From positions 1,350,217-1,414,216 of the forward strand of contig JAOPJY010000001.1 in assembly GCA_025517425.1 (NCBI GenBank): DNA of 64,000 bases, in the 5' to 3' direction. The notes below the pieces were generated by a model that saw only the letters and a list, made by a program, of their open reading frames with translations, was not told the origin of the DNA and did no database searches. Shown here piece by piece: positions 21,593-28,018 of the stretch. Position 1 is the stretch's first letter. Every line of letters starts with the position of its first letter. Made by a program: the position numbers and the translations under genes. Origin of the DNA: Halobacteria archaeon AArc-dxtr1 (GTDB taxonomy: Archaea; Halobacteriota; Halobacteria; Halobacteriales; Natrialbaceae).

Positions 21593-22117
21593 ATGGCACC
21601 GGCCGATCGACGCTCACGACGAGCCGTGATCTATGCACTCGCAAGTGGCGTCGGTTCCGCCGTCATCGCAGGGTGTACCGATGGGATGGGGGAAGGAGAT
21701 GCCAATACGGACTCGGACCGCGACGACGAGGGTCCAGCGGAGGCGGCGGACGACGCCGATCCACCCGACGCCGACTGGGAGGACGGATGGGACGATGTCG
21801 ACACGATCGAACTCGAGGCACACGCCGACGACGGATGGATCGGGCGTCGTCCAGAACCGATTGACGACGTCGAGAATCCGGACATCGCCCTGTACGAGGG
21901 CCGCGAGTACGAGATCGTCTGGACGAACGTTGACGGCGACGTTCACAACTTCGCCATCTGGGACGGCGGCGACGAGCCGCTGGTTTCGACTTCGTTCGTC
22001 GACGAAGAAGACCAAGAAACCACACACCAGATCGAGGCGAGCGACGAGATGGACGTATACCTCTGTGAGACCCACGAGCGGGAGATGGTTGGCTCTATAG
22101 AGATCCGGACCGAGTAG
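21593..22117 (+). CDS. Halocyanin-like blue copper lipoprotein
   Basis: This 174-residue cupredoxin starts MAPADRRSRRAVIYALASG with a Tat-like RR motif and a lipobox AVIAGC. An acidic, Asp-rich linker (about residues 28-75) leads to the copper domain. Likely ligands are His in DVHNFAIWD and Cys, His, Met in LCETHEREM (C-x2-H-x3-M), the halocyanin arrangement. It should sit on the outer face and carry electrons to an oxidase. It lies 226 bases upstream of the first ba3 oxidase operon on the same strand; the oxidase has its own promoter. The ATG at 21593 is chosen because the signal peptide then begins correctly. Confidence 0.88.
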   Translation: MAPADRRSRRAVIYALASGVGSAVIAGCTDGMGEGDANTDSDRDDEGPAEAADDADPPDADWEDGWDDVDTIELEAHADDGWIGRRPEPIDDVENPDIALYEGREYEIVWTNVDGDVHNFAIWDGGDEPLVSTSFVDEEDQETTHQIEASDEMDVYLCETHEREMVGSIEIRTE

Positions 22118-25712: not shown

Positions 25713-25958
25713 TCAGCGGTGGTGCGCCGATTCGATCGTCGGATCGAACTCGAATGCCTGTTCGTGGACCGACGGACTGTCCTCGTCAGCGGGGTGCCAG
25801 CTGTTTCCATCCCTGTCTAGCAGCCGCGGCTCCATACAATGTAGACACCGGAGCGGGTAGACCGACTCTCCGCCCGTGACGACAACCCCGTGGTTCCATG
25901 GGTGGTGCCAGTCATGGCCGTACAGGCGACACTGCCAATTGCCGTTCAGAGACCACAT
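25713..25958 (-). CDS. Small putative zinc-binding protein
   Basis: This 81-residue protein (MWSLNGNWQCRLYGHDWHHP at its start) has Cys and His spaced like a zinc ribbon: C10, H15, a His cluster, then LRCLHCMEPRLLDRDG. It has no membrane segment. It lies antisense to the oxidase operon between the frameshifted gene and the stress protein. I do not recognise a named family. The Cys/His pattern and absence of a better frame support it, but it could be a chance reading frame. Confidence 0.45.
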   Translation of the reverse strand: MWSLNGNWQCRLYGHDWHHPWNHGVVVTGGESVYPLRCLHCMEPRLLDRDGNSWHPADEDSPSVHEQAFEFDPTIESAHHR

Positions 25959-26063: not shown

Positions 26064-27293
26064 ATGTACGACACGATTCTCGTTCCGACCGACGGGAGTG
26101 CAGTCGCAGACGACGCCGGAACGTACGCGATCAGACTCGCAGAGCACTTCGACGCAGCGCTCCACGTTCTCTCGGTTCTCGAGCGAGGACTCGTCGGTGG
26201 CGACGACGAAGACGAGGGCGAACGGGCCGTCAACGAACTGGCAGACCAGGCGCGAGACCGCAACCTCGAGGTGACGACCGAACTTCGCGAGCAGGACGAC
26301 GACGTCCACGAAGAGATTCTCGCATCGGCCAACGAGCACGACGCGGACCTACTCGTCATGGGCACGACCGGTCGGAGCGCGATCGGCCGATTCCTGCTGG
26401 GCAGCGTTGCCCAACGGACACTTCAGGAGTCGTCGGTCCCGGTCACGACCGTCCACGAAGAGACGCGTCTCGAGGACGCGTTCGAGCGCATCCTGGTGCC
26501 GACCGACGGAAGCCACAGCGCGGTAACGGCCCTCCAACACGCTGTCGACCTCGCGGTCGAGACCGGAGCACGGCTCCACATCGTCCACGTGAGCGAGGAG
26601 TCGCCCGTCGACGGAACCGAGACGATCGATCTCGCGAGTGAAGCCGGCCTGGGCCTCGATCCCGTCGACGACGCGCTCGAGCACCTGCGTGGATCACAGC
26701 TGGACGTCGTCGACGTCTCGGTTCCGAGCGGACGGGTCGACCAGCAGATCCTCGCCACCGCCGCAGCGTCCGACGTCGACTGCATCGTGATGGGAACGCA
26801 CGGCGAAACCGGACTGCGTCGCTACCTCCTGGGAAGTACGACCGAACGCGTCGTCCGTTTCGCCGGCGTTCCGGTAATCGGCAACAGTGCGCCCCGAGCC
26901 GAGACAGTCTCCGTCGAATACCTCGACTACCAGGTCGTCGACGACCGTGGCTGGTCGCTCAAGGACGACAACCTCCTCGAACGTGCAGCAGCCGCCGATC
27001 TCGACGAGATGGCACACGGCACGTTCGAGGTGTCGCGCGACGAGTACGTCCTCGACGCGGCCGAAGCGGCCGGCCACAACTGGCCGTTTCACTGCCGGGC
27101 TGGCGGCTGTGTGAACTGTACCGCCGTGTTGCTCGAGGGGGATCTCGAGATGGATGTTCAGCGAAGTCTTTCCGAGGAGGAAGTCGAAGAGAAGGGGTTC
27201 CGACTGACCTGTGTGGCCACGCCAGCGAGCGACTCGATCAAGCTGATCTACGGCGCGAAACACCTCGATGAACTGCGTGACCGGGTCGTCTAG
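26064..27293 (+). CDS. Tandem universal stress protein domains fused to a 2Fe-2S ferredoxin
   Basis: This 409-residue three-domain protein has Usp domain 1 (about 1-138; DTILVPTDGS, LLVMGTTGRSAIGRFLLGS) and Usp domain 2 (about 143-280; ERILVPTDGSH, CIVMGTHGETGLRRYLLGS), both with the G-2x-G-9x-G-S/T nucleotide loop. Residues about 284-409 are a full halobacterial plant-type ferredoxin (SVEYLDYQVVDDRGW onward) with cluster Cys 344, 349, 352 and 383 in CRAGGCVNC...LTC. The ferredoxin domain keeps the N-terminal insertion of the free haloarchaeal protein. The fusion suggests nucleotide-sensing coupled to electron transfer, perhaps to the membrane b-type protein encoded 74 bases downstream. Confidence 0.93.
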   Translation: MYDTILVPTDGSAVADDAGTYAIRLAEHFDAALHVLSVLERGLVGGDDEDEGERAVNELADQARDRNLEVTTELREQDDDVHEEILASANEHDADLLVMGTTGRSAIGRFLLGSVAQRTLQESSVPVTTVHEETRLEDAFERILVPTDGSHSAVTALQHAVDLAVETGARLHIVHVSEESPVDGTETIDLASEAGLGLDPVDDALEHLRGSQLDVVDVSVPSGRVDQQILATAAASDVDCIVMGTHGETGLRRYLLGSTTERVVRFAGVPVIGNSAPRAETVSVEYLDYQVVDDRGWSLKDDNLLERAAAADLDEMAHGTFEVSRDEYVLDAAEAAGHNWPFHCRAGGCVNCTAVLLEGDLEMDVQRSLSEEEVEEKGFRLTCVATPASDSIKLIYGAKHLDELRDRVV

Positions 27294-27367
27294 GGTCCGC
27301 TTGCTGGGATAGTTTTATTCGAGCGATCGGTGTCCATCAAGTCACAATCGAGTGATACGACCAGACC

Positions 27368-28018
27368 ATGACGGCAGATACCAATAACGAACTCACGCAC
27401 CACCTGAGTGTAGCGATCGGAAGCATCGCCGTGGCGGTTCTGCTGTGGGTCGTCGGATACGGCGGGCAGCGAGTCGTTGCTGCCGTTCCCTTCTTCATCC
27501 TGTTCGTCGTGATGGTCATCGGTCCGCTGGTGCGCATCCGGCCGTCGATTAGACGCCGATTCTCGGGGAACTTCCCCGTGAACTGGCGGTCGGAACTGGG
27601 TATCTGGTTTGCCATCTGGTCGGTTGTCCACGTCCTGTTCGTCTTCTGGGCCCGCGACTGGGACGTGGTCGGCTATCTCGTCGACATGAGCCCGTGGGCG
27701 TTCGGTGCGATGGTCGCCGTCCTGATCGCGATCGTGCTGGCGTTGACCTCCAACAACTGGGCCTACGACTACCTCGGCCCAAAAGCGTGGAAGTGGCACC
27801 AGAGCCACGGTACGTACGTCATCTTCTGGCTCGTCGCCGTCCACGGCTACGACCGGGCGTATCTCCGACCGTACGAAGAGATGGGGTTTCCCTCGGACGA
27901 TCCGCTCCATCTGCTCTATCTCTCGATGATCGTCCTGGTGGTCGTCTTCCACGTGGTCGCGTTCGCAGCGGTTGTCTCCCAGTATCGAAAGACCGGCGAG
28001 TATCCACCCGACCTGTGA
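27368..28018 (+). CDS. Ferric-reductase-like b-heme membrane protein (MsrQ/YedZ-like)
   Basis: This 216-residue protein has about six transmembrane helices. Histidines in helices fit two stacked b-hemes: WSVVHVLFVFWARDW, WKWHQSHGTYVIFWLVAVHGYDRAY, and VVFHVVAFA. The LGPKAWKWHQSHGTYVIFW pattern matches the ferric reductase transmembrane family that includes MsrQ. It lacks cytosolic FAD/NAD domains, so it needs a separate donor. The Usp-ferredoxin gene directly upstream on the same strand is an obvious candidate. A TATA-like AGTTTTATTC near 27310 may give it its own transcript as well. The acceptor is unknown; no MsrP-like gene is adjacent. Confidence 0.8.
   Translation: MTADTNNELTHHLSVAIGSIAVAVLLWVVGYGGQRVVAAVPFFILFVVMVIGPLVRIRPSIRRRFSGNFPVNWRSELGIWFAIWSVVHVLFVFWARDWDVVGYLVDMSPWAFGAMVAVLIAIVLALTSNNWAYDYLGPKAWKWHQSHGTYVIFWLVAVHGYDRAYLRPYEEMGFPSDDPLHLLYLSMIVLVVVFHVVAFAAVVSQYRKTGEYPPDL

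Follow-up and report, generated by a model that had tools for sequence, protein, structure and literature searches.

The window, a 64,000-nucleotide stretch of the genome of Halobacteria archaeon AArc-dxtr1, contains an open reading frame of 409 codons (26064-27293, plus strand) that starts with ATG, has no internal stop and joins two universal stress protein (Usp) domains to a ferredoxin domain (Fer2). A gene for a small predicted membrane protein, hereafter the partner, follows it. The features considered here are:

26064..27293 (+): whole Usp-Usp-Fer2 fusion gene, 409 aa; full-length orthologues, AlphaFold2 model
26064..26456 (+): Usp domain 1, residues 1-131; Pfam PF00582
26361-26405 (+): putative nucleotide loop of Usp domain 1, GTTGRSAIGRFLLGS, residues 100-114; kept in 32/32 orthologues
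26478..26888 (+): Usp domain 2, residues ~139-275; Pfam PF00582
26793-26837 (+): putative nucleotide loop of Usp domain 2, GTHGETGLRRYLLGS, residues 244-258; kept in 31/32 orthologues
26910..27290 (+): haloarchaeal-type [2Fe-2S] ferredoxin domain, residues 283-409; NF041393, Foldseek, Cys set in 32/32 orthologues
27294..27367 (+): intergenic region with a TATA-like TTTTAT, a conserved GATCGGTGTCC and GTCAC-N6-GTGAT; subfamily-A upstream regions compared by eye
27368..28018 (+): partner, probable ferric-reductase-domain (YedZ/MsrQ/STEAP-like) membrane protein, 216 aa, six predicted helices; sub-cut-off profiles, conserved residues, co-occurrence
21626-22117 (+): cupredoxin-like lipoprotein (C terminus H...C-2x-H-3x-M); cluster of 6 across fusion loci

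Architecture and conservation of the Usp-ferredoxin fusion

The first-pass annotation had described one frame with two Usp domains, their nucleotide loops and a four-cysteine ferredoxin, a description borne out by Pfam, NCBIfam and motif analysis. PF00582 recognized both Usp stretches (E value of 1.2e-57 over the whole protein), PF00111 (Fer2) matched residues 320-387 (E value of 3.9e-13), and the NCBIfam equivalog for haloarchaeal ferredoxin, NF041393, aligned over its full model (positions 2-128) with residues 283-409 at 199 bits, for a cut-off of 150. Both Usp loops match G-2x-G-9x-G(S/T), and C344, C349, C352 and C383 (C-4x-C-2x-C...C) are the predicted cluster ligands. Among the 32 fusion genes tested for conservation, all retain loop 1 and the four cysteines and 31 retain loop 2. 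An AlphaFold2 model built from a 13-sequence alignment (mean pLDDT of 77.7, pTM of 0.60), in which the nucleotide loops are among the lowest-confidence regions, gave the Haloarcula ferredoxin 1doi as its top Foldseek match (E value of 7.6e-15), and its Usp part matched the tandem Usp structures 3loq, 3ab8 (with ATP) and 3cis. Usp proteins are known to bind adenine nucleotides, and the same ligand is predicted for the tandem Usp module of the fusion, as is a [2Fe-2S] cluster for its ferredoxin domain.

Searches of 199 related genomes and of an order-wide sample of 392 show that the fusion is real and conserved, with 33 full-length genes, including second copies in genomes G024, G078 and G085, in 30 haloarchaeal genomes from four families. 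The orthologues are about 46-84% identical to the window protein, and all 33 run through the linker between Usp domain 2 and Fer2 without a stop, leaving no sign of the frameshift that the first-pass annotation had thought worth checking. Named hosts are Natrialba magadii, Natrialba chahannaoensis, Natronococcus occultus, Natronorubrum bangense and a Salinarchaeum MAG, and the gene is plasmid-borne in N. magadii and N. occultus. Its distribution is patchy, since none of the four same-genus genomes searched contained a full-length match. No fusion was found beyond the haloarchaea in a 197-genome phylum sample searched at an E value of 1e-70, a threshold that may miss independent Usp-Fer2 fusions. 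Two subfamilies were distinguished, A (~409 aa) and B (~390 aa). Usp-Usp proteins and ferredoxins are elsewhere encoded by separate genes, free Usp-Usp proteins (43-52% identical) being common in haloarchaea.

The fused Fer2 domains (33 rows) form a single clade with support of 100/98, apart from 32 canonical ferredoxins, from J-domain types and from types with a short N terminus, as would be expected from a single fusion event. All three domains show pairwise dN/dS values mostly of 0.08-0.3; the fused Fer2 is under purifying selection. A canonical free ferredoxin, as anticipated by the first-pass annotation, is encoded in the same genome (contig C4) and is ~51% identical to the fused domain. 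The accompanying suggestion that the fused domain is a specialized second copy agrees with its consistent divergence in that clade: compared with canonical ferredoxins, fused domains have H, Y or F for S at position 343 and G for A at position 348 beside the cluster, and R367-S368 for Q-I elsewhere. These changes may alter the redox potential or the surface presented to a partner. A separate, old fusion within the same ferredoxin family was also observed, in which a J-domain-like sequence with an HPD motif precedes a haloarchaeal Fer2 (L139, L144, L146).

A stress cluster recurs around many of the fusion genes (window 17860-44000; L052-L059, L148, L149), comprising single Usp genes, a cation P-type ATPase, a CBS protein, PAC2, a CLC channel and pyridoxamine-oxidase-like genes, a content resembling that of the mycobacterial DosR regulon. 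At several loci, a divergent gene upstream of the fusion encodes a small conserved protein (CRLYGHDWHHPW...CxxC; 25713-25958, minus strand) without a Pfam match.

A co-inherited, predicted membrane partner

The partner is most likely a ferric-reductase-domain (FRD) cytochrome b of the YedZ/MsrQ/STEAP type. Hydropathy and charge predict six helices; matches to PF01794 (Ferric_reduct; E value of 3.8e-4, 21 bits) and to the NCBIfam MsrQ family (E value of 1.1e-5, 25 bits) fall below the respective cut-offs of 28 and 130, and the distant homologues L099 and L107 exceed that of PF01794. R74, H88 and Q145 are present in 43 of 43 homologues and H159 in all 42 that are readable at this position; H12 is a further invariant histidine. 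The order R..H, Q..H fits the YedZ/STEAP heme signature, in which an arginine replaces the first heme histidine of TM3, one TM3 histidine is kept, and TM5 carries a glutamine and a histidine (PMC3591440). A fold search with the AlphaFold model of the partner returned no meaningful match and was discarded because the model is poor (pLDDT of 59.5).

Fusion and partner are inherited together. With partner presence defined as a match at an E value below 1e-40, the 199 related genomes comprise 29 with a full-length fusion match, 34 with the partner and 27 with both, and the 392 genomes of the order-wide sample comprise 23, 28 and 22, respectively. The partner is thus found in 27 of 29 fusion genomes versus 7 of 170 others (Fisher test, 1.2e-24), in 22 of 23 versus 6 of 369 order-wide (1.5e-29), and the association also appears inside the family alone (4.3e-18), in tests that treat as independent genomes that are related, so that the counts are not phylogenetically independent. 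The pattern recurs in four families.

The two genes are also physically linked. Next to 26 of the 33 fusion genes, or one gene away, lies the partner (a count that includes the frameshifted partner of L043 and L042, which is cut by a contig end), and it is within five genes of one more. A 70-aa two-helix protein with a conserved histidine and weak similarity to cytochrome b561 families replaces it near four others (L045:6511-6723, L046:5184-5402, L050:6612-6824, L061:6763-6972): it occupies that place in the two fusion genomes without a partner, G028 and G104, and lies beside one fusion gene each in G078 and G024. The remaining two fusion genes have neither protein nearby and the partner elsewhere in the genome (G017, G134). 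In Natronococcus sp. A-GB1, an intact fusion gene adjoins a frameshifted partner gene (L043:6630-7276, G085:C2), and a second fusion gene is accompanied by an intact partner.

In subfamily A, the partner usually lies downstream, often 73-82 bases away, behind its own promoter-like region; in subfamily B, it is divergently transcribed and is the sole neighbour kept in all loci. The A and B groups of the partner tree correspond to the fusion subfamilies. Because the region ahead of the partner gene, with its TATA-like element and GATCGGTGTCC, is conserved in subfamily A, this gene likely has its own promoter rather than forming an operon with the fusion. The inverted repeat GTCAC-N6-GTGAY holds a fixed position before the partner gene in subfamily-A relatives, the window carrying GTCAC-N6-GTGAT at 27341-27356, 12-27 bases ahead of the partner start codon, and might be a regulator site. 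As a regulon-wide motif it was rejected, given fewer matches in the window than in shuffled sequences; only its position is conserved.

Possible electron route and competing interpretations

The adjacent, co-inherited cytochrome-like gene, which the first-pass annotation did not mention, is the strongest clue to where electrons from the fused ferredoxin may go. We propose that the fusion is a dedicated cytoplasmic electron donor of this membrane protein. That step, taken by itself, is fairly probable because fusion and partner are linked and co-occur, because L105 encodes the components individually within a single stretch, namely a tandem Usp (unfused but close to ferredoxin), two Fer2 proteins, the partner and a P-type ATPase, and because Fer2 recurs in association with FRD proteins, being among the domains found fused to them (PMC3591440). 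The donation of electrons to MsrQ by Fre offers a model for it (PMC5676040, PMC11031084). Within the partner, H88 and H159 would hold a single heme close to the outer face; the positively charged loop 56-74 would place R74 and Q145 on the cytoplasmic side (positive-inside rule), the side on which YedZ and STEAP have no heme-binding histidines.

The full explanation adds that the tandem Usp module at the N terminus binds adenine nucleotide and tunes the transfer: the Usp pair, changing with nucleotide under energy or redox stress, would determine how available the ferredoxin is or how it docks at the membrane. We propose this gating step because the loops are conserved and nucleotides are known for Usp proteins, which together are its whole basis, and we put the chances of the complete explanation at about even.

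A third extension concerns the destination. Electrons from the 2-oxoacid:ferredoxin pool would then pass through the membrane to an acceptor on the outside, for which roughly half of the fusion genomes offer a candidate, a lipoprotein [2Fe-2S] ferredoxin. When no fusion accompanies it, the partner often adjoins a short Fer2 protein whose N terminus is lipobox-like (L090, L092, L095, L096, L097, L105), some of these proteins having a twin-arginine-like signal, and relatives counted at an E value below 1e-30 are found in 18 of 36 genomes with partner or fusion versus 3 of 163 others (Fisher test, 5e-13). The window's own genome has no match to the lipoprotein ferredoxin. Its cupredoxin-like lipoprotein, encoded directly upstream of the cytochrome oxidase genes of the window, is there a candidate acceptor purely by proximity. 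A transmembrane relay gated by adenine nucleotide, from the Usp-ferredoxin through the FRD cytochrome b to an outside lipoprotein ferredoxin, seems doubtful to us as a complete chain. No MsrP was recognized by eye beside the partner or fusion at ~40 loci, a family scan having covered part of the neighbours. A ThiF/MoeB-like adenylyltransferase gene recurs near partner or fusion genes (L094, L097, L098, L053, L102); taken as a possible sign of a molybdoenzyme partner, it was set aside, as it recurs in a few loci and no MsrP was recognized.

The same electron route could operate with a Usp pair that only oligomerizes or anchors the ferredoxin and thereby raises its local concentration, nucleotides having no gating role. 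Such a scaffold shares the linkage evidence of our preferred explanation and accords with the dimers of tandems formed by tandem Usp proteins (PMC12159084), to which the matches of the model to 3loq, 3ab8 and 3cis can be added. It would, however, need neither loop, yet loop 1 persists in all and loop 2 in 31 of the 32 orthologues, whose identity to the window protein is 46-84%, and we consider it unlikely.

Membership in a shared stress cluster could also explain the linkage by itself, if the fusion were a stress isoform serving the usual soluble partners in an ordinary ferredoxin role. Many loci, some on plasmids, do lie among Usp, P-type ATPase, CLC, PAC2 and pyridoxamine-oxidase genes. Subfamily B nevertheless lacks the stress cluster, no neighbour other than the membrane gene is common to all of its loci, and co-occurrence persists where fusion and partner are unlinked (G017, G134), which makes this interpretation quite unlikely.

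Still less likely, in our judgment, is a redox sensor in which the state of the cluster alters nucleotide binding or Usp signalling without onward transfer of electrons. The loss of canonical residues, S and A next to the cluster (now H/Y/F343 and G348) and QI at another site (now RS367-368), and the abundance of single Usp genes at several loci would suit it, but a sensor of this kind does not account for co-inheritance with a predicted transmembrane electron carrier whose homologues adjoin other ferredoxins, nor for retention of the whole haloarchaeal ferredoxin fold across 127 residues. Finally, the notion that a sequencing or assembly error joined two genes, one for Usp and one for ferredoxin, has nothing in its favour and can practically be dismissed: 30 genomes carry 33 orthologues that read through, dN/dS is mostly 0.08-0.3, and the Fer2 domains form one clade at 100/98.

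Comparison with known systems

Usp proteins are widespread, and to our knowledge their molecular output is largely unknown. If a Usp pair is joined to an electron carrier that serves the partner, the rate of heme reduction would become a measurable output of nucleotide binding. Should the fusion feed the partner, a ferredoxin would be a new input for an MsrQ/STEAP-type cytochrome, replacing the flavin reductase; should the entire relay exist, archaea could discard or export low-potential electrons as their energy charge dictates, by a regulated form of electron export that is new although its parts belong to known families. All component families of the fusion and partner are already known. 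The remark of the first-pass annotation that it knew of no described protein with this architecture stands in part: reviews of archaeal Usp architectures cover tandem proteins, permease fusions and cation/H+ exchanger fusions with no mention of ferredoxin (PMC12159084, PMC7601130), and we found no description of a Usp-ferredoxin fusion in the open-access literature, subscription papers lying outside the search, but the proteins themselves are in RefSeq, where the names "ferredoxin Fer" for the fusion and "hypothetical protein" for the partner conceal both.

Known tandem Usp proteins (AF 3loq, TTHA0350 3ab8, Rv2623 3cis, UspE) share with the window protein the two domains, the ATP-type loops and the fold found by Foldseek; the window protein adds a C-terminal electron carrier. 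The haloarchaeal [2Fe-2S] ferredoxins (NF041393; 1doi, 1e0z) have the same 127-residue domain and four cysteines, with 54-55% identity to the structures, whereas the window domain sits behind two Usp domains, forms its own clade, has different cluster-side residues and is co-inherited with a membrane cytochrome-like gene. Haloarchaeal J-domain-ferredoxin fusions likewise join this ferredoxin family to a stress-related domain, but they form a separate Fer2 clade and lack Usp. The closest parallel to the proposed route is E. coli MsrQ/YedZ with Fre, a small FRD membrane protein whose electron donor is a distinct, soluble protein of the cytoplasm (PMC5676040, PMC11031084), from which the haloarchaeal pair would differ in that the proposed donor is a Usp-fused ferredoxin and not a flavin reductase.
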